From Mesorhizobium terrae (GTDB taxonomy: Bacteria > Pseudomonadota > Alphaproteobacteria > Rhizobiales > Rhizobiaceae): a stretch of 64,000 nucleotides of DNA. The stretch lies in contig NZ_CP044218.1 in the NCBI RefSeq assembly GCF_008727715.1, forward strand, positions 3,179,501 to 3,243,500. The letters run 5' to 3'. A model generated the notes under the pieces. That model was not told where the DNA came from and ran no database searches. It worked only from the letters and a program-made list of their open reading frames with translations. The position numbers and the translations under genes are program-made. This document shows, piece after piece, positions 18,766-30,871 of the stretch (position 1 is the first letter of the stretch; every line of letters begins with the position of its first letter).

Positions 18766-18777
18766 CGCGGCGTTAAT

Positions 18778-18916
18778 GTTCTCAGGGCGGGGTGAAAGTC
18801 CCCACCGGCGGTAAGGGTGTTCGCACCCGAGCCCGCGAGCGCCTTCCGGCAACGGAAGGGTCAGCAGATCCGGTGTAATTCCGGAGCCGACGGTCACAGT
18901 CCGGATGGAAGAGAAC
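18778..18916 (+). ncRNA. FMN riboswitch (RFN element)
   Basis: The conserved RFN core is present: AGGGCGGGGTGAAAGTCCCC, ACCGGCGGTAA, a variable stem, TCAGCAGATCCGGTG, and GCCGACGGTCACAGTCCGGATG. The closing helix pairs GTTCTC (18778-18783) with GAGAAC (18911-18916). FMN binding would reduce expression of the downstream lumazine synthase. The expression platform probably lies in the 80 nt up to the ATG. Confidence 0.96.
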
Positions 18917-18927
18917 GAACGGAATAG

Positions 18928-19848: not shown

Positions 19849-19887
19849 AGGTGCCGGCGTGCCGGCCTCTTGATGGGGGAGGTTTGG

Positions 19888-21537
19888 GTGGCGGAGGAAA
19901 CATTCGTCGATCGTCTGATCAGCGATGCCTATCGTATCGCCGAATATGCGCGCACAAACCGTACCATCGACGACGCGGAACTGTGGGCCGCGATCAAGGC
20001 GGTCGAACAACTGCCCGAGGCCGAGCGCAAGATCCAGGACGATAAGGTGAAGGCGCTTCAGGAGGCCTTCCGCAAATGCACCGCCAATATCGAACCGCAG
20101 GCGCTGGTCGCCATCAGGAACGGCTGGAATCCATTCAAAAATTCATGGCGCAACAGGGCAAGGATCGCGTTCCTGGTCCTGATATCGCTGGCCTCCATGG
20201 CCATGGTCGGGCAGCTCACCCAGATCTACAATTCGGGCAGGCTGCTTTCCACCGATCTCATAGCACTGCAAAAAAGCAATTCGCTGGAACGTTTCGGCCT
20301 GCTGGAACGTGAACTCAACGAAGCGCAAAGGCGCCTGTCCGATAAGAAAGATGGAGAGGGTCAAGGCGATCCCGCCGGACAGGGCGCGATCCCGGCGGTT
20401 GCCGGCGGCACGGCCGGAGATGCATCCGGCGAGGCTGGATTGCAGTCGGGAGATACGCGCGAACGCTATCTGCTGGCCCGCGAGGCGGCCTATTCGAAAC
20501 AGGATGAGCTGATCAAACTCGACCAGCAGATACGTGCGCTGGAAATCCGGGCCGAGACTTTCCAGAAATTGGCGAAGAACCCCATCGCGGGCATGGAAAC
20601 CGCCCGTAAGGTCGGCGACAAGATATCAAACTGGTTCGCCTGTCTTCTACTGAATGATCTCAGCGCCGGGGAGGCGCTCAAGAAGGCTGCGGAATCTCCC
20701 CGGTCAATGAGCAGCGGCAATGTCGGTGTTCCCGAAAGTGCCGGCGCGCAGCCTGCCATCGCGATATGCCCACCAGGCTTCCGCGGCGCCACCCCTGGCA
20801 TGACATCGGACGGCGGGGGGCCGGGTGGTGGCGGTCTCTCGGCGGCGAGCGACGCTGCTACCGACCCCAGCCCGCCTCCCCCATCTGGTGGCTATGGCCA
20901 CGAGCCGCGCAGTGTGGTGATGCGGGGAGCTTTCTGCTCGCATCTGGACTATCTCGCCCCGGAAGGCCAGACATCCGCGGCGACTGCGGACCCCGCAAGG
21001 CAGTATATCGCCGCCATCGCCTATACGATCGACAATCAGTTCGGCGTCAGGGTTGCCGACATCATCAGCCAGAACTGCAAGATCGGCCTTTATTATTATT
21101 CCGGCTCGATCCCGGATATGGCTTCGCTCGAGGCTCAGGTCCGTGACACCAACACCTTTTATTCCTTCATCATTCTGCCGGCGGCTTATGGCGCGCTCGG
21201 CGCGCTGATGTTCTACATGCGCCGGATTCTCGATCCGCTTCTGCCGGACCCGACCTTCCTCAGGACCGTTCACCGTGTCGCGCTGGGCGCGCTTGCCGGA
21301 GTACTACTGGCCTGGCTGTGGGTCGGTATCTTCGACAGCAGCGAGGATTTCAAGGCGGTTGGGCTCGGACTGTTCGCGCTCGCCTTCGTGTTCGGCTTCA
21401 GCATCGAGGTCTTCTTCGACTTCCTCGACAGCCTGGTGAACGCGGCAAAGCGCCAAGTTAGCAAGTTTGACGACCCGGCTAGCCCAGCCACCACTGCCAA
21501 CCCGGCGACGCCTACCCCCGCCAAGCAAGGCTCTTAA
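19888..21537 (+). CDS. Large membrane protein with coiled coil, function unknown
   Basis: A 549-residue protein. Residues 1-85 are helical and charged; a TM segment (RIAFLVLISLASMAMVGQL) lies near 90-108. An extracytoplasmic region follows with coiled-coil stretches (SNSLERFGLLERELNEAQRRL near 132-155; YSKQDELIKLDQQIRALEIRAE near 208-230), separated and followed by Gly/Pro/Ser-rich linkers. Near the C-terminus are two or three TM helices (FYSFIILPAAYGALGALMFYM; LGALAGVLLAWLWVGIF; GLGLFALAFVFGFSIEVFF) and a Pro/Thr-rich tail. The start is GTG 19888, because GGGGGAGG lies 6 nt upstream; an ATG 15 nt earlier overlaps that site. Several Cys lie in the loop. I cannot assign a family. Confidence 0.7.
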   Translation: MAEETFVDRLISDAYRIAEYARTNRTIDDAELWAAIKAVEQLPEAERKIQDDKVKALQEAFRKCTANIEPQALVAIRNGWNPFKNSWRNRARIAFLVLISLASMAMVGQLTQIYNSGRLLSTDLIALQKSNSLERFGLLERELNEAQRRLSDKKDGEGQGDPAGQGAIPAVAGGTAGDASGEAGLQSGDTRERYLLAREAAYSKQDELIKLDQQIRALEIRAETFQKLAKNPIAGMETARKVGDKISNWFACLLLNDLSAGEALKKAAESPRSMSSGNVGVPESAGAQPAIAICPPGFRGATPGMTSDGGGPGGGGLSAASDAATDPSPPPPSGGYGHEPRSVVMRGAFCSHLDYLAPEGQTSAATADPARQYIAAIAYTIDNQFGVRVADIISQNCKIGLYYYSGSIPDMASLEAQVRDTNTFYSFIILPAAYGALGALMFYMRRILDPLLPDPTFLRTVHRVALGALAGVLLAWLWVGIFDSSEDFKAVGLGLFALAFVFGFSIEVFFDFLDSLVNAAKRQVSKFDDPASPATTANPATPTPAKQGS

Positions 21538-23334: not shown

Positions 23335-23470
23335 AAGGTGGTCTCCCAAATCGTCAGGTGGCAGGCGCGGCATTGGCCGCCGGTGTCGGGCTGCATAGAA
23401 GCCGAGCGGGAGGCCATCCCGCCGTCTCAAAACAGCCGCACAATACGCGAAATGCGACAGGGTCGTTTAG

Positions 23471-23500
23471 AGCGAATAGCGAATAGGGAGTAGCGAGTAG
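23471..23500 (-). repeat. Degenerate inverted copy of the heptad array
   Basis: Four heptads (AGCGAAT, AGCGAAT, AGGGAGT, AGCGAGT) match the reverse complement of the array at 23559-23642. The two blocks are in opposite orientation, 58 bp apart, and could pair as a hairpin. Confidence 0.75.
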
Positions 23501-23558
23501 GCAAGGCCGGAGCGTACATTAAATCCTGCTTGCGACATGGCCGCAGCCGGCTAATTTG

Positions 23559-23642
23559 TTCGCTATTCGCTATTCGCTATTCGCTATTCGCTATTCGCTA
23601 TTCGCTATTCGCTATTCGCTATTCGCTATTCGCTATTCGCTA
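23559..23642 (+). repeat. Tandem array, 12 exact copies of the heptamer TTCGCTA
   Basis: 84 bp consisting of exactly twelve TTCGCTA units with no mismatch. The last unit overlaps the TAG stop codon of the DUF2333-like gene on the minus strand. Being perfect and seven bp long, it should vary in copy number between strains. The 23335-23558 segment before it holds the fhs promoter region and the inverted copies, and no gene. Confidence 0.95.
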
Positions 23643-24761
23643 CTGCGAAAGCACGCTGCTGATTTCGACCATGTTCGAGCGGACGCGCAGGATATAAAAA
23701 CCCATCGTCGTCAGATGGGTCGCGAAGATGCCGGTTTCGTCGCTGTTGGCGATGATCCAGGGCTGGATGCGCAGCGCCGAGACGAACTGGGCGTCCATGG
23801 TGTCCCACAGGCTCTTCAGGTTCTTCTGCTTGATCACGTCCTCGAAGTCAGCCTGCGCGGCCTTCATCAGCCCGTAATAGGCGTAGAGCTGGCCATAGGC
23901 GAACCAGAAGCGGTCATCGGCGCGGAAGTCGAAGAAGCCGTAATCGTAGTTCTCGGCGCGGTCCTTGAGGATGGCCGAGGTCGAGCCGATGTCTGAGGCG
24001 ATACGGTCGATATATTGCTTGAGATTGTCGGCGCGGGCGTCGAACACGGCCTGGCAGGTGGAAAGCCTGCCGTTGAAGGCGCGCAGCTTCTTGATGGCGT
24101 CGCGATAGTAGCTGGGCGTCGGCGTCTTGGGGCCGAACGGGCTGAAGCCGAAATACCAGGTGGCTTCGTCGAATTGCAGGTTGCCGCGGGCTTCCTGCAG
24201 GTCGCCGTCGATCTGCGAGGTGGTGCGCACGCGGCCCATATTGTCGGCAAGCTCGGTCGATGTGCGACGCACCGCCTGGTTGATGCCGCGCTGGAACGAG
24301 GCCTTGTTGTCCATGAACGGCGTCTTGTCCCAGTCGTAGCCGAACAGCCCGACCTTGTAGAGGATCATCGACGAGATCCAGGCATTCTGGTTCACGTTGA
24401 AATCGGTCAAGTCGGCCGTCATGTCGGCGATCGCCGAGCGCGCGCAGGATTTGGTCGTGTCGGTGCCGCCGCCGGCCGTCACCTGTTCGCCGGCCGAGAC
24501 GTCTCTCTTGGCGAAGTCATATTTGTTGACGTAGTTCGGATCGAAATTGTTCCACCATTGGGTGGCATAGAAGAAATTGGCGTAGAGCCCGATCAGCACG
24601 AGCAGGGCGGCACCCAGAATGGATTTGAGCATCCAGCCCCGCTGAAAATACCAGCGGCCGACCCACATGAACGGCCACAGCGCTATGCCGATCAGAAAGC
24701 CGATACCGCGGCCGATCCATTGAAACATCCGGGTGAAAAAGTTCACGATCGGATCAAGCAT
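23640..24761 (-). CDS. DUF2333-like membrane protein, last gene of the AAA+ cluster
   Basis: A 373-residue protein. The N-terminus is amphipathic/hydrophobic (IGRGIGFLIGIALWPFMWVGRWYF, residues 16-40, then SILGAALLVLIGLYANFFYA, 46-66), so it is anchored in the inner membrane; the remaining 300 residues are probably periplasmic. Sequence features such as QWWNNFDPNYVNKYDFAKRD, NQNAWISSMILYKVGLFGYDWDKTPFMDNKASFQRG and TWYFGFSPFGPKTPTPSYYRDAI fit the DUF2333 family as I remember it. Two or three Cys are present. The stop codon TAG is the first base triplet of the heptad array. It is the last gene of a five-gene operon, 21 bp after the preceding gene. Function unknown; probably the membrane component of that system. 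Confidence 0.75.
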   Translation of the reverse strand: MLDPIVNFFTRMFQWIGRGIGFLIGIALWPFMWVGRWYFQRGWMLKSILGAALLVLIGLYANFFYATQWWNNFDPNYVNKYDFAKRDVSAGEQVTAGGGTDTTKSCARSAIADMTADLTDFNVNQNAWISSMILYKVGLFGYDWDKTPFMDNKASFQRGINQAVRRTSTELADNMGRVRTTSQIDGDLQEARGNLQFDEATWYFGFSPFGPKTPTPSYYRDAIKKLRAFNGRLSTCQAVFDARADNLKQYIDRIASDIGSTSAILKDRAENYDYGFFDFRADDRFWFAYGQLYAYYGLMKAAQADFEDVIKQKNLKSLWDTMDAQFVSALRIQPWIIANSDETGIFATHLTTMGFYILRVRSNMVEISSVLSQ

Positions 24762-24782
24762 GCGGTGACACCCCTCGTCGGT

Positions 24783-26069
24783 TCAGTCGGCCAGGCCATA
24801 GAGACGGGTCCTGAACGTCGCCTTGTCCCTGAGATATGTGGTTTTCAGGACATCGACAACATGCGATCGCCATACCTCGCTGTAGCCTTCGTAGTCGCGA
24901 TAGAAACCCTGCTTGTTGAAAATGTAGCGGGACACGAAGTCCGACGGCACGAAATCGGAGATCAGGCGGTTGGTCAGCCAGGCGTCGGGATGGCTTGGTT
25001 TGGCGCGCACCACCAGGAAACGCTGCTGCGGCTTTACCTCCTCGATCTTCAACCGGCCAAGCTGGCCGATCTCGCGCTTGGCGGCGTTGAGGAAGGGGAA
25101 ATTGCCGTCGCGGTTGATCGCGTCGGCGTGGTTGTGGATCCAGGTCTGCAGCCACACCTTGTCGACGCTGGAGAGGTTGCGGTCCGGATCGGACTGCCAG
25201 ATCAGGTCGCGCACCACCATCTCGGCGCGGTGCTCGAGATAGCCGGAACTCTCGACCCATGACGCGCGCGGCAGTTCGATGCGCCCGGAGGTGGCGAGGA
25301 ACTTGAAAACAGTGTCGGCGTCCTTGATCGACAGGTAGCTCACCTGCCACGGCCGCGAGCGGCGGAAACCGGGCGCGGCGGGGTCGCCGACCACCGTTGT
25401 CACGTCCTTGTCGACGAAGACATAGAGCCCGCCGAAATGGCTTGTCCAGTATGCGTTGTGGCGGAAGATGACCTGGTCCGGCACCAGCGCGTTCTCGCGG
25501 ATATCGCCGGTGACCTTGGCCAGTTCCACCATGCGGTCGAGCATCTCGTTGTCGCGCCAGGCGTCGGGTTCCTGTTTCAGGCGATCGACCAGGGTGCCGA
25601 GTTCCGCCGCCTTGCCGAGAACGTCTTCGGCCGAAAGAACGCGGAACTCTACCTGGTTGATGGACAGGAGATCCTCGATGTCCTCGACCTTCGAGACGGA
25701 ATCCTCGATCTCGCCATAGAGCACGTCCTTGATGGTCAGCGCGTCGATGGCGCGGCTGTTCCTGGACATGAATTCGAACATCAGCTGCGAGGTGTTCGAG
25801 AAGGCGGTGTGCACCACCGGCAGATCGATCTGCGATGGGGTGAGGATGATGAAGCGGCGGTTGACCCCGTTCGGATCGAGATAGGCCTGGTCTCCGCATT
25901 CCTCGGCGATCTCCGGCGAGAAGCCGGTGCGGTCGATATGGAAGCTCTCCAGCCCCGTCGGCTTCAGGCCGAACGCGGCGAGTGCCTTGTTGTAGCGCCC
26001 GATCAGATGCGGCTCGTCCACCGTGAGCAACCGGCCATAGATCAGCTCGTTGTCGCGCAGGAGGTCCAT
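24783..26069 (-). CDS. Conserved protein of the AAA+ cluster, function unknown
   Basis: A 428-residue soluble protein without signal peptide or TM segment. The start is ATG 26069, which overlaps the ATPase TGA by one base (TGATG), implying tight coupling; a GTG four codons earlier has a ribosome site too close to it. Recognisable stretches: GFSPEIAEECGDQAYLDPNG, RRFIILTPSQIDLPVVH, FRHNAYWTSHFGGLYVFVD, and near the C-terminus SDFVPSDFVSRYIFNKQGFYRDY. I cannot assign a family. Stoichiometric expression with the ATPase suggests it is an adaptor or substrate of the ATPase (inference). Confidence 0.7.
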   Translation of the reverse strand: MDLLRDNELIYGRLLTVDEPHLIGRYNKALAAFGLKPTGLESFHIDRTGFSPEIAEECGDQAYLDPNGVNRRFIILTPSQIDLPVVHTAFSNTSQLMFEFMSRNSRAIDALTIKDVLYGEIEDSVSKVEDIEDLLSINQVEFRVLSAEDVLGKAAELGTLVDRLKQEPDAWRDNEMLDRMVELAKVTGDIRENALVPDQVIFRHNAYWTSHFGGLYVFVDKDVTTVVGDPAAPGFRRSRPWQVSYLSIKDADTVFKFLATSGRIELPRASWVESSGYLEHRAEMVVRDLIWQSDPDRNLSSVDKVWLQTWIHNHADAINRDGNFPFLNAAKREIGQLGRLKIEEVKPQQRFLVVRAKPSHPDAWLTNRLISDFVPSDFVSRYIFNKQGFYRDYEGYSEVWRSHVVDVLKTTYLRDKATFRTRLYGLAD

Positions 26070-27979
26070 CAGGCGTTCCACAGCCCCTTCTTCTGCAACT
26101 CCGCCATTTCGCGCGCGGCGCGTTCGCGCAGCCTGGCGTCGCGTAGAAGTTTGTCCACCGCTGCGTCGTCGGACTTGTCGGCGTAGCGGAACTCCGAGTC
26201 GGCGTAGCGGTTGATCTCCTGCATGACCATGTCCATGTCGAATGGCCCGCGCAGTTCCTCGATCATCGCTTTCTTCTCGTCATAGGCCTTGTGCATGAAG
26301 GCCTCGGGCTTTTCGAACCATTCGTCGGGAAGTTCGATGTCCATCGCCCGCATCTTGATGGCGTCGGTGACGTTCTTGATGGCGCGGCCGGTGAAGCGCG
26401 GTTCTGCTTCCTTGATCATGTGCAGATAAGTGCCGACGTCCTCCATGGTCTTGGGCGTGCCATTCTCCTTGGTGAAACGCTCGAAAACTCTTACGAGCCC
26501 GTCTTCCCGAGGTTTGGCGTGTTCGCCATAGGCTTCGGTCACGGCACGCTGGATTTCCTGCGCGGCGTAAAGCTCGTGGTCGCCGAGCGGGATCTTGTGG
26601 TTTTTGCCGGCCAAAAGCACGAAGATGTCGATGTAGTCGTCGCGGGTCTGCGGACCGTCGACCAGCCAGCGGGCGCCGGCGCGCTGGCGCAACGCGTCGT
26701 CGACGTTTTCCGGATAGTTGGAAAACATGCCGAAAGAGCAATTGCCGCGCACCACCGTGCCGGCACCGGCAAAGGCGTCCATCAAGACGCCGGTGATTTC
26801 CTGCTGGCCGGCGGAAGCCCGGTCGTCGGAGCGTTTGGCCGCCACCTGGTCGATGTCGTCGATGGTGCCGAAGCCGATGGCGCGCGGGTTCAGCACATTG
26901 TTGATGAACTGCCGGCAATTCTGGCCGGACTTGCCCTGGTAGGACGAGATCTGGTCGACACCGAAATTCTCATAGGCGAAGGGATAGCCGGCGACCTTGC
27001 AGTAATCGTTGACCAGGCCGGCGATCATCTGGATCAGCGTGGTCTTGCCGGTGCCGGGTGCGCCGTCGCCGATGAAGGTGAACAGGAAGCCGCCAAGTTC
27101 GACGAACGGGTTGAGCTCGCGGTCGAAGTCGTAGGCCATCAGCATCTTGGCCAGCTTGATCGACTGGTATTTGGCGATGTGGTTGCCGACGACTTCTTCC
27201 GGCTTCTTGAAAGTCATCACCAGCGGCTTGGCACGCTTGCCGGGAGCGACGTCGAAACCGTCGAGGATGAAATCGTCGGCGTCGATGCGGATATGCGCGT
27301 TCTCGAAGGTGCCCAGCCCGTCGAAGCGACCCTTGCGGGCGAGAAGCCCGTCGATGGTAATGCGGGCGAAGCTTTTCGCCCGCGCCAGCAGGTCGGCATC
27401 GTCCTTGGCGCCCGACAATGCCCGGTCAAGGCCGGCCACCAGCGACTTGACCGCATCCTGCGGCGTGTCGAACAGGAGATCGGGCTCGGCGATGTCGTTC
27501 GGCGCCTCGCCGTCGCTGTCGATCGACTGCGTTAGGTAGGACGCCAGCGCAAAAGCCGAAACATAGGCGGAGGCCGACAAAAGTTTCTTGAAATGGCTGG
27601 CCTCGTCGCCTTCAAGCGGCGCGCGAGCGTTCCTGGCCTGCAGGCTTTCGAGGTCGGAGCCTTCGGCGAAAATGTCGGCGACCGCCAGCGCGATCGCGAT
27701 GCCGCGGCGGGCGCGGTAAAGCAGCGTGTGCTGCGGGATCGACAGCAGCTGATCGTCCGGCCGCACGGAGGCAACCGTTCTTACCAGTTCCACCTCGCGT
27801 GTCTTGCGCACCGAGCCGGTCGAAACCGTCGAGACGAAGCGGCGACCGGTGCCGGCGAGCGCCGTGCCCTGTTCGCGGGCGGGGTCTTCCAGCACGACGA
27901 TGCGGGTGATGAAGCTCTGCGCGGTGGCGCGATGCTTTTCGATCGCCGCTTCGGAGATGGTGGTCAGGCCGGTATCCAT
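26069..27979 (-). CDS. AAA+ ATPase of an uncharacterised five-gene cluster
   Basis: A 636-residue protein. The N-terminal 290 residues are a helical non-ATPase region (HTLLYRARRGIAIALAVADIFAEG; TFENAHIRIDADDFILDGFD). The AAA+ core follows: Walker A GAPGTGKT at 306-313, Walker B GFGTIDDID at 369-377, a sensor-1-like FSNYPENVDDAL near 419-430, and a possible Arg finger RQRAGARW near 431-438. The C-terminal helical part includes EAEPRFTGRAIKNVTDAIKMR and a charged coiled tail (RDARLRERAAREMAELQKKG). The start is ATG 27979 with GGGGG upstream; a longer frame reading back into the neighbouring gene is spurious. It probably forms a hexamer remodelling a protein or membrane complex with its four cluster partners. 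Confidence 0.85.
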   Translation of the reverse strand: MDTGLTTISEAAIEKHRATAQSFITRIVVLEDPAREQGTALAGTGRRFVSTVSTGSVRKTREVELVRTVASVRPDDQLLSIPQHTLLYRARRGIAIALAVADIFAEGSDLESLQARNARAPLEGDEASHFKKLLSASAYVSAFALASYLTQSIDSDGEAPNDIAEPDLLFDTPQDAVKSLVAGLDRALSGAKDDADLLARAKSFARITIDGLLARKGRFDGLGTFENAHIRIDADDFILDGFDVAPGKRAKPLVMTFKKPEEVVGNHIAKYQSIKLAKMLMAYDFDRELNPFVELGGFLFTFIGDGAPGTGKTTLIQMIAGLVNDYCKVAGYPFAYENFGVDQISSYQGKSGQNCRQFINNVLNPRAIGFGTIDDIDQVAAKRSDDRASAGQQEITGVLMDAFAGAGTVVRGNCSFGMFSNYPENVDDALRQRAGARWLVDGPQTRDDYIDIFVLLAGKNHKIPLGDHELYAAQEIQRAVTEAYGEHAKPREDGLVRVFERFTKENGTPKTMEDVGTYLHMIKEAEPRFTGRAIKNVTDAIKMRAMDIELPDEWFEKPEAFMHKAYDEKKAMIEELRGPFDMDMVMQEINRYADSEFRYADKSDDAAVDKLLRDARLRERAAREMAELQKKGLWNA

Positions 27980-28014
27980 TCGTCCCCCGTCAAGCCGTCT
28001 GGTTCGGATGGTCG

Positions 28015-29160
28015 CTACACATCCGAAATCACCCGTCCGCCGGACAGGATATGGACCTTGTAGCCGCCGAAGATCTTCTGCGCCTCGCCGGCGGCGTAGA
28101 GCGCCTGATAGGCCTCGTGCGGCACAAGCGCGTGGTTCTCGTAGCTGGAAACGCCCTGGCGGGTCGCTTCGAGATCGTCGGTGTTGATGAAGAACTCCTG
28201 CGTGGTCTTCTCGCTGGAGAACAGGCCGCGCCGGCCGGGCTTCTCGCCCTTCGAATAGACCTCCTGGATCGTCCAGGTCAGCAGCCAGGCATTTTCGGGC
28301 TTGCGCACCTTGGCCAGCACCTCGGTGACGGTCGAATTGTTGTCGGTGATGCCGGCCGAATAGAAGGGCCCGAGCACCACGCGCCGCAGCTGTTTTGGAT
28401 GCAGTGGCTCGAAATCCTTGTCGAGATTGACGGCGATGGTCAGCGGCGCCAGCGAGTAGGACGAGTTCTTTTCGGTGAAGTCGTCGAAGCGGCGGGCAAG
28501 GTCGGGGTTGAGCAGGCCGTCGACGGGCAGCGGTATCTCGACCTTCTCGTTCAGGCGTCCGTCCTTGTCGACCAGCTGGCGCACGATGCCGTCGGAGGAA
28601 TCCTCGACGGTCGCCATATAGATCAGCGGCAAATTGGCGGTGCCGTCGAAGCTTGCCCAATGCACGAGATAATAGGGCAGGCCGGATTTCGGATTGACCG
28701 AGACCTTGGCGGTCTGCGCCAGGGAGAAGGGCGCGAAGGTCTCGCCGCTCTTGATGTCTTCCAGGTAAAGCCGCTCGGCCATCGACTTCTGGAGCGCTGC
28801 CGGAAACTCCTTGTGGCGCAGGATGAAGTCGGCCATCTCGGCGCGCAGTTCGCGGGCCGAGGGGATCGTCGCCAGCCGGCTATCGGCCTGCCGGCGGTCG
28901 TTTTCCAGTTCGAGCAGGTTCTGGAACACCGGATAGCCGCTTTCGGCGCGCGAGATCTTGAACGTCTCCATGAAGCCCAGCCGGTTGCGCCAGCAGGTGA
29001 AGGATTTGTCGAGCCGGGCGATGTATTCGGCGACGATCTTGGCGACGATGCCGTGCCGGTAGAGCGGCGAGCGGTCGTCGCGCATGAAGATTTCCAGCCC
29101 CGACAGGGCGGCCGTGATGGCCGAGAAATAGCGCTCGGCCGCTTCGGTCTCGACGGTCAT
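28015..29160 (-). CDS. Conserved protein of the AAA+ cluster, function unknown
   Basis: A 381-residue soluble protein, no signal peptide. N-terminal half is helical (AERYFSAITAALSGLEIFMRDD; YIARLDKSFTCWRNRLGFMETFK); the C-terminal half is strand-rich (YYLVHWASFDGTANLPLIYMATVED; QLRRVVLGPFYSAGITDNNS; AWLLTWTIQEVYSKGEK). It ends with YKVHILSGGRVISDV. The gene lies 88 bp after the coiled-coil gene and 35 bp before the ATPase gene, all on one strand. I do not recognise the family. Presumably a dedicated partner of the ATPase. Confidence 0.7.
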   Translation of the reverse strand: MTVETEAAERYFSAITAALSGLEIFMRDDRSPLYRHGIVAKIVAEYIARLDKSFTCWRNRLGFMETFKISRAESGYPVFQNLLELENDRRQADSRLATIPSARELRAEMADFILRHKEFPAALQKSMAERLYLEDIKSGETFAPFSLAQTAKVSVNPKSGLPYYLVHWASFDGTANLPLIYMATVEDSSDGIVRQLVDKDGRLNEKVEIPLPVDGLLNPDLARRFDDFTEKNSSYSLAPLTIAVNLDKDFEPLHPKQLRRVVLGPFYSAGITDNNSTVTEVLAKVRKPENAWLLTWTIQEVYSKGEKPGRRGLFSSEKTTQEFFINTDDLEATRQGVSSYENHALVPHEAYQALYAAGEAQKIFGGYKVHILSGGRVISDV

Positions 29161-29248
29161 GGCTTTACTCCCTTCCAGGCGAAGGGATGGCGGCTATGGG
29201 GGCGATCGGAAGAAGGCATTGAATGCGGACAGTCCTGTCGTGTCGTGG

Positions 29249-30337
29249 TCAGGACTGCACGTAGTTCGCGGCGTTGTGCTTCTTCATCACATCCTCGAAG
29301 CGGCGCGAAAAGGCATCGTCGGCCAGCTTCTTGCGGCGCTGGATGTCGGCGGTCGCCACCATGTTCTTCTCATGCATCTCGAGCAGGTCGCCAATGTGTT
29401 TTTGCGCGGCGGCGCCGATGCCGGCCATGGTCTCCTCAGCCGTGGTGTCGACCTGCGAGCCCAGTGTGTTGATCTTGTGGGCGACATCCTGCTGGGCGGC
29501 TGTCTTCAGCGAATCCTCCAGCGCCTTGTAGAGCACGATACGCTGCTCGGTATCGATGGTCAGCTTGTTGATCAGCGTCGACTGCGCGGCGATCTGGTTG
29601 TTGAGCGAATCCACGAAGGTCTGGAACATGGACGTGTAGCGCTCCAGCGTCTGGCTGGCCGCCAGCAATTCCTGCTCCTTGGCCTGGCGCTCGTTGTATT
29701 CGGTGGCCAGTTTGGAGCGCTCGCTCTCCAGCGCGGTGCGATCCTTCTGGCTGGTCGAGGCGGCAATCCTGTTCTCGACGTCGAGCAGCATCGGGTTCAG
29801 TTCCATGATGCGCTTCTGCACGGCTTCCAGCTCGGTCATGGTCGCCTTGCGGCGCTCGATCACCTGCGAAAGGCTGGCCTCGGAGGTCTTGTAGCGTTGG
29901 TCGAGCACCTGCTTCTGCGCCTTCAGGATGCCGACGATGGTGTCGGACTTGGCCAGCAGTTCCTGCAGGTTGCCGGCCAGCGACATGTTGCGCACGCGGT
30001 CGGTGCGCAGGCGTTGCTTCTTCTGGGCCGAGAAGATGCCGACGAAGTTTTCCCAGCCGGTGTAGTTTTTCATGCTCTCGAATTCGGCGCCGAACACGTT
30101 GGTGGCGTCCTCGAGGCCGATGATGAGGTCGGCGATGTTGGCTTCCATCGTCTTTTGCTGTTTCAGCACGTCGTCGATGCGGGCGTTCTCGATGTCGAAA
30201 TTGGCATCGCCGATCTTCTTGTCGGCCTTGGCGAGCGTGTCGAGCACGCTACCGGACTGCTCGATCTTGGAGCGCATCTCCTCGACGACCTGCTTGGTCT
30301 TGGCAATCTCGGTGTCGAAATTCTGCAATGTCGCCAT
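29249..30337 (-). CDS. Coiled-coil protein, first gene of the AAA+ cluster (distant TelA resemblance possible)
   Basis: A 362-residue, almost wholly alpha-helical, charged protein without signal peptide. Heptad-rich stretches run from LQNFDTEIAKTKQVVEEM through NLQELLAKSDTIVGILKA, RKATMTELEAVQKRIMEL and LESERSKLATEYNERQAKE. A conserved-looking block is MKNYTGWENFVGIFSAQKKQ. Its layout recalls TelA-type toxic-anion-resistance proteins, which are also helical and soluble, but I see no decisive motif. The start at ATG 30337 has GGGGG 4-5 nt upstream. It heads the operon and is separated from the next gene by 88 bp, the largest gap within the cluster. Confidence 0.75.
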   Translation of the reverse strand: MATLQNFDTEIAKTKQVVEEMRSKIEQSGSVLDTLAKADKKIGDANFDIENARIDDVLKQQKTMEANIADLIIGLEDATNVFGAEFESMKNYTGWENFVGIFSAQKKQRLRTDRVRNMSLAGNLQELLAKSDTIVGILKAQKQVLDQRYKTSEASLSQVIERRKATMTELEAVQKRIMELNPMLLDVENRIAASTSQKDRTALESERSKLATEYNERQAKEQELLAASQTLERYTSMFQTFVDSLNNQIAAQSTLINKLTIDTEQRIVLYKALEDSLKTAAQQDVAHKINTLGSQVDTTAEETMAGIGAAAQKHIGDLLEMHEKNMVATADIQRRKKLADDAFSRRFEDVMKKHNAANYVQS

Positions 30338-30388
30338 CGGGTCCCCCTAGCGGTGTCAACACGGACCTGCACGCGACAGGTTGCGGCG

Positions 30389-30416
30389 AATATATGGGGG
30401 GCGATTGGCGATTGAA
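30389..30416 (-). promoter_or_regulatory. Possible promoter of the AAA+ cluster
   Basis: Minus-strand TTCAAT (30416-30411), a 16-bp spacer and TATATT (30394-30389) lie about 50 bp before the coiled-coil gene, in an otherwise GC-rich gap. Confidence 0.4.
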
Positions 30417-30475
30417 AGACAGGCCAGGCGCTTTCGCCGCAATGCGGCCGATGTCGGTGGTCTTTCGTTCGCCGC

Positions 30476-30871
30476 TTACGGCTTGGGGTCGGCCTTGAGA
30501 TAGGCGATCACATTGGCGATGTCGGCATCGTCCTTGAGCCCGGCGAAGCCCATCTTGTTGCCCGGCACCTTCGCCTTCGGCGCGCGCAGATAGTCGGTCA
30601 GGGTTGCTTCGCTCCAGACAAGACCGCCACCGCCGGCGTCTTTCATGGCCTGCGAATACCGTGACAGATAGCTCGGCGCGCTGCCGGCGGCGCGGCCGAT
30701 GACGCCCAAGAGATGCGGGCCGACCCTGTCCTGCTCGGAGGTGGCGTCGTGGCAGGCCATGCAGCGGGTGAAGACCTTCTTGCCGGCCGCTGCGTCGCCT
30801 CCGGCGAAGGAAGGCATGGAGATCAGCACGGAAATCAATGCGATGGCTGGGCCGAGCGCCTGGCGGGTCAT
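30476..30871 (-). CDS. Periplasmic class I cytochrome c
   Basis: A 131-residue exported cytochrome. Signal peptide at residues 1-24 (ALGPAIALISVLISMPSFAGG). The haem motif is CMACH near residue 38, and the distal Met is in PGNKMGFAGL near residue 105, giving a His/Met c2-like haem. Length and DYLRAPKAKVPGNKM are typical of rhizobial cytochrome c2/c552-like carriers. It could shuttle electrons from the bc1 complex (petABC lies 28 kb away) to an oxidase. It follows the thymidine kinase gene on the same strand, 72 bp apart. Confidence 0.92.
   Translation of the reverse strand: MTRQALGPAIALISVLISMPSFAGGDAAAGKKVFTRCMACHDATSEQDRVGPHLLGVIGRAAGSAPSYLSRYSQAMKDAGGGGLVWSEATLTDYLRAPKAKVPGNKMGFAGLKDDADIANVIAYLKADPKP

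Follow-up and report, generated by a model that had tools for sequence, protein, structure and literature searches.

Introduction

PspA operons that contain AAA ATPases have been described (PMC11237479), and in the PspA/AAA and ESCRT-III/Vps4 systems a coiled-coil protein, a classical AAA ATPase, and membrane proteins are combined in one operon; the passages of that article considered here name none of the families treated below. A likewise composed locus is present in a 64,000-nt stretch of the Mesorhizobium terrae genome (GCF_008727715.1, contig NZ_CP044218.1, positions 3,179,501–3,243,500; this whole stretch is hereafter the window), in which five open reading frames (ORFs), designated A to E in that order, all lie on the minus strand within window positions 23640–30337, as an initial annotation of five co-directional genes had stated. 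Gene A encodes a soluble coiled-coil protein and gene C an AAA ATPase, while genes D and E exceed the curated cut-offs of DUF6638 and DUF2333, respectively, both of which are family names without a function. Our literature searches, outside which most subscription papers lay, returned no description of this gene set and no paper mentioning DUF6638; for DUF2333 a single paper was found, which, in the part of it considered, places the family in an hcp3 locus of a type VI secretion system. The comparison with relatives reported herein indicates that genes A–D are very probably passed on as a single unit whose membrane neighbours can be exchanged.

Results

Co-inheritance of genes A to D

In one draw of 299 genomes of the phylum, DUF6638 (gene D) was detected in 20, and a profile of gene C (E 1e-10) was found in the identical 20. 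The profile of gene A detected all of these genomes and four more (G043, G107, G253, and G265), in which a diverged A stands beside tdk and E; neither C nor D was detected there by profile, and the fetched regions gave no match to B. Loci L215–L218, from genomes of two further host-family genera, show such a reduced form of the locus, having kept tdk, a strongly diverged A, and E without C and D (B was not found in the fetched regions). Among 121 genomes of the host family, D was present in 71, full-type A in 72, and E in 94, the A count being made up of the 71 D-bearing genomes and G551 (68% complete), with weaker or spurious A matches in four others excluded. Among the 64 genomes in which A and D shared a contig, 61 had the two genes on one strand and at most 6 kb apart (the exceptions being G466, G475, and G524); A and D were on different contigs in seven further genomes.

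The same arrangement was observed in a second family, taken by inference for Rhodobacteraceae and denoted f16 below. A-B-C-D was complete in all 11 regions of one set and in 19 of 20 further f16 regions, the remaining one being cut by the contig. Of the 80 nearest named loci, 77 had all five genes on one strand and in the same order, and L019, L060, and L080 were cut by contig ends; this conservation is weak evidence by itself because the 80 loci are the closest relatives. Pairwise distances of A–D correlated strongly between genes, with r of 0.977–0.995 over the 110 loci having all four genes, and with 0.926–0.975 and 0.795–0.863 within 78 host-family-type and 30 f16-type loci (two of the latter from other families), respectively. 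Since shared ancestry inflates these correlations, the contrast with E is what counts: the corresponding value for E versus C was only 0.63, which indicates that E diverges independently of C. Thus, of the single five-gene dedicated machine initially proposed, a dedicated set of co-inherited, ordered, and co-diverging genes A–D stands, whereas E as an equal member does not. Homologues that are rarely adjacent had been named as grounds for rejecting that proposal; across the relatives the homologues of A–D adjoin, and the objection fails for these four genes.

Membrane neighbours of the core

Gene E is a lineage-specific membrane partner and not an equal fifth member of the core. It directly follows D (same strand, less than 1 kb) in all 71 D-bearing host-family genomes, and its sequence varies beside a conserved ATPase: in 59 loci C is at least 86% identical to that of the window, and the identity of E reaches 75% or more in 40 of them but stays under 70% in 16. 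In f16, an 88-aa transmembrane (TM) protein and DUF1523 occupy the place of E, and all 48 D-bearing genomes have DUF1523 at 284–474 bp downstream of D. DUF1523 was still present in 40 of the 52 f16 genomes that lack D; when 16 of these 40 were fetched (13-kb regions), the 88-aa protein was recognised in 14, and no match to A, B, C, or D was found in any of the 16.

The E protein has one hydrophobic segment (residues 42–67), whereas A–D have none, and its Cys106 and Cys236 were invariant in 84 of 84 sequences. One TM segment and two invariant Cys residues are consistent with a large C-terminal part that is probably periplasmic. Outside the host class, no A or C was seen near DUF2333 in the loci inspected. 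In five of seven loci examined in another family, f30, PspA was encoded upstream of DUF2333, from which it was separated by at most two same-strand ORFs. These five loci are L279, L280, L283, L284, and L234; sulfite-reductase-type genes follow in L283, and a PCuAC gene lies in between in L234.

The AAA ATPase encoded by gene C

Gene C matched PF00004 with an E value of 1e-10 (42.6 bits against a curated cut-off of 21.2), and the Walker A (GAPGTGKT) and Walker B (GFGTIDDID) motifs reported for it by the initial annotation are both present. The protein shares with classical AAA proteins (CDC48/VCP-like, i-AAA/FtsH, and proteasomal Rpt) the Walker A motif, an aromatic pore loop (YQGKS), a sensor Asn, and an Arg-finger segment, to each of which the role general for AAA proteins is assigned. 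PGTGKT of Walker A did not vary in two alignments of C sequences (19 of 19 and 9 of 9), and in a set of 114 sequences the pore-1 loop YQGKS and the sensor Asn were each conserved in 113 and the Arg-finger segment in all. It differs from these proteins in its N-terminal region of about 290 residues, which matches no family, and in the Walker B motif, where Asp replaces the catalytic Glu in 114 of 114 sequences, the pair aligning to the Asp-Glu of VCP-like proteins. Because of this Asp-Asp, C is regarded as a variant classical AAA protein. A Glu to Asp change at this position generally slows hydrolysis. The C profile reached solved AAA proteins only at E values of about 1e-4.

Junctions between the core genes

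The C–D junction of the window, in which the genes overlap by one base, is exceptional and not conserved. Overlaps of one to four bases occur in just 6 of 78 host-family-type and 2 of 30 f16-type loci (median gaps, 535 and 538 bp), so that the TGATG overlap initially noted is real but the fixed stoichiometry drawn from it is not sustained. In relatives, this junction commonly contains additional ORFs. Of the 80 named loci, 34 had a DUF559 (nuclease-fold) ORF there, as did S. meliloti; all 35 ORFs lay on the operon strand, and about 1.6 Mb of flanking sequence contained no further copy. Two matches first classed as outside the junction start within C and extend into the gap, and these were taken as slot copies. 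Identity to the L001 copy was 46–82%, against 69–95% for C (L001–L080 and L263), showing that DUF559 diverges far faster than its neighbours, and some of the copies are fragments. In S. meliloti Ak57 (L263, 10100–11845), an endonuclease-domain (DUF559-type) gene is accompanied by an ISRm16 copy between C and D.

Other ORFs at this junction were PIN-type in three loci and Phd-type antitoxin in two (one of each checked against Pfam), together with single cases of a CSD/P-loop ORF, a DrmC-like ORF on the opposite strand, and, below the Pfam cut-off, HEPN-like (E 0.0025) and HNH-like (E 0.0012) ORFs. The window's junction holds no extra ORF, and junctions of 50 bp or less were found in 19 of 78 loci. 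Small TM ORFs were counted on the same versus the opposite strand in gaps of 180 bp or more. In f16-type loci, a same-strand TM ORF was present in 13 of 17 A–B gaps (opposite strand, 0 of 17) and in 15 of 23 C–D gaps (opposite strand, 5); the host-family-type values were 0 of 9 for A–B, 3 of 11 for B–C (opposite, 2), and 1 of 56 for C–D (opposite, 5).

Distribution and mobility

The A–D cassette is patchy in f16, being present in 48 of 100 genomes. On a DUF1523 tree of 47 rows (31 with and 16 without A–D), its distribution in f16 required 10 changes, 7 of them forced by supported branches, compared with a mean of 13.6 for shuffled labels. In G050, a genome of family f41 from another class of the same phylum, the DUF1523 of the block nests among f16 rows (support of the innermost forks was moderate), which suggests that this block was transferred. 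A tblastn search with C returned 10 plasmid records, all predicted to be non-mobilizable; six were rhizobial, and the other four came from Vibrio (39%). Two of the Vibrio regions were opened; in each, the core genes follow one another in the order A-B-C-D, separated by 48–98 bp, and mfd comes next. These plasmids (L261, NZ_CP015514.1; L262, NZ_CP062152.1) are very large (0.88–0.93 Mb), a striking type of replicon in their own right, and a LysM gene as well as numerous unnamed proteins are encoded in the vicinity of A–D. Phage records gave no match, and among viral contigs 156 pattern hits yielded no confirmed relative. The chromosomal site had initially been held to argue against mobility; in view of the patchy f16 pattern, the Vibrio plasmids, and G050, that argument was too strong, and what remains of it is the single site kept by the locus in close relatives and the prediction for all ten plasmid records.

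Layout of the locus in the window

The coordinates are collected in Table 1. The intergenic gaps are 88 bp (A–B), 35 bp (B–C), −1 bp (C–D), and 21 bp (D–E), and the ATG start of D has an in-frame GTG 12 nt upstream. D matched DUF6638 over nearly its full length (3e-74; 250.9 bits against a cut-off of 27; profile 2–410 of 439), and E matched DUF2333 with 2.6e-26 (92.8 bits against 22), while A and B had no Pfam match above the cut-off; in NCBIfam, PADLOC, and PHROGs, the only matches beyond those in Pfam were of AAA type, all for gene C. The predicted model of D was confident mainly at residues 243–428 and helical. The named homologues among the best matches listed for C were nearly all from Mesorhizobium and Aminobacter (87–90%).

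Table 1. Features of the A–E locus (window coordinates)
Feature	Position	Strand	Description
Gene A	29249..30337	-	362 aa; soluble coiled-coil protein; first core gene; no family above cut-off
Gene B	28015..29160	-	381 aa
Gene C	26069..27979	-	636 aa; classical AAA ATPase (PF00004)
Gene D	24783..26069	-	428 aa; DUF6638 (PF20343)
Gene E	23640..24761	-	373 aa; DUF2333 (PF10095); one TM segment
C/D junction TGATG	26067..26071	-	one-base overlap; variable insertion slot in relatives
Promoter-like block CTTTCAATC...CATATATTC	30388..30418	-	some 50 nt 5' of gene A

A block resembling the promoter-like one recurs 5' of A in 22 relatives (of 80) aligned with the window, with the TATA core in all rows; a consensus sigma-70 scan of 23400–30600 found no promoter-like site, which counts against it. 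The 7-mer TTCGCTA is repeated perfectly twelve times at 23559–23642, from the stop codon of E in the direction of fhs. Elsewhere in the window, an FMN riboswitch at 18774–18920 on the plus strand (117.9 bits) was the sole Rfam match at the gathering threshold, and a plus-strand ORF at 19870–21537, convergent with fhs, encodes a 555-aa membrane protein of no known family with relatives in 8 of the 80 named loci.

Discussion

We tentatively propose, as a reading that may well prove wrong, that A–D form a cytoplasmic AAA remodelling machine acting at the inner membrane through interchangeable anchors under envelope stress. In such a machine, C would assemble into a hexamer and pull its substrate by means of the pore-1 loop YQGKS, with hydrolysis presumably slowed by the Asp in place of the Walker-B Glu. 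The long coiled coil of A might be the polymer of C, its substrate, or a bridge to the membrane, and B and D would be adaptors bound to C. E would anchor or recruit the complex and might read the state of the envelope through its periplasmic domain, so that the likely output would be envelope upkeep under stress, in a manner like that of the PspA/AAA or ESCRT-III/Vps4 systems without membership in them. The TM segment of E, the small TM ORFs in the f16 A–B gaps, and the PspA genes near DUF2333 in f30 were counted in favour of this membrane link.

Several observations weigh against it. Of the 121 host-family genomes, 23 have E but no D, and 40 of the 100 f16 genomes have DUF1523 but no D; the anchors thus lead independent lives. 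The two Vibrio regions (26 and 22 kb fetched) yielded no match to E or to DUF1523. The association of PspA with DUF2333 is limited to 5 of 35 DUF2333 loci, all in f30, with none in the other 28. Gene A is not detectably PspA, as PF04012 was unlisted for it at E values up to 1 and hhalign gave a probability of 8.9 over 35 columns; as a candidate TelA it fared no better, with PF05816 unlisted up to the same E value and a probability of 1.3 over 50 columns. Fold searches with B and D revealed no clear relative. Finally, patchy presence and junction inserts also fit a conflict system.

The main alternative, that A–D are the core of such an anti-phage or anti-plasmid cassette, in which an AAA sensor or remodeller and its adaptors would be joined to a variable effector slot at C–D and a membrane protein behind, nevertheless seems unlikely to us. 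The patchy f16 pattern with its forced changes on the DUF1523 tree, the carriage on large Vibrio plasmids, the DUF559 ORFs found only in the slot and on the operon strand, and the PIN, Phd, CSD/P-loop, HEPN-like, and HNH-like cases speak for it, and it is like the defence systems of PADLOC 2.0.0 in being an AAA-bearing cassette, patchy in one family, with nuclease-like inserts in relatives. It differs from them in that A, B, D, and E match no model at E 0.01, and C matches just TRIP13 (3e-5) and IetA (6.8e-7 at best, for a Vibrio copy), in both cases over the AAA domain only. Further points against it are the presence of D in 71 of 121 host-family genomes, the short junctions described above and the empty one of the window, the lack of any phage or confirmed viral-contig match, and the DUF559 copies themselves, which are partly fragmentary and may descend from few insertions. 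It is similarly doubtful that A–D represent a modular AAA machine of a new kind, serving cell conflict or the defence of the envelope, with a fixed engine, a resident membrane protein as dock, and interchangeable C–D effectors; if so, the four-gene engine would dock on DUF2333 or on the 88-aa/DUF1523 pair according to lineage, and the effectors would be the DUF559 nuclease, PIN/antitoxin proteins, and small membrane proteins.

A chaperone or activase, with C remodelling an enzyme or a cofactor-loading target and B serving as a T-fold-like ligand-binding subunit, is a rather improbable reading, the logic of which is comparable to that of MoxR/VWA or Rubisco-activase pairs. Two further explanations have very little probability. 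A toxic-anion (TelA/Ter-like) resistance system would fit the long, soluble, and helical product of gene A, since TelA is also a long soluble helical protein; no sequence relationship to TelA was found by the searches above, which leaves a tellurite link of A unsupported, the host has no TelA, and in three genomes of the same genus A and TelA are two distinct genes. The locus might also be imagined as nothing more than stable synteny among unrelated housekeeping genes, because fhs, tdk, and a cytochrome c gene accompany the locus in 72, 69, and 39 of the 80 closest named loci, respectively. This is contradicted by the co-occurrence counts of A–D, whose order, moreover, persists in the other surroundings of f16, a Stappia-like genome, G050, and Vibrio.

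With A–D as a co-inherited core, A, B, C, DUF6638, DUF2333, DUF1523, and the 88-aa protein become one testable system instead of separate function-less families, and one that is present in 71 of 121 host-family and 48 of 100 f16 genomes sampled. The invariant Walker-B Asp-Asp of C poses a clear biochemical question, and the exchange of the membrane anchor between lineages suggests which parts of the system may be the engine and which the address.

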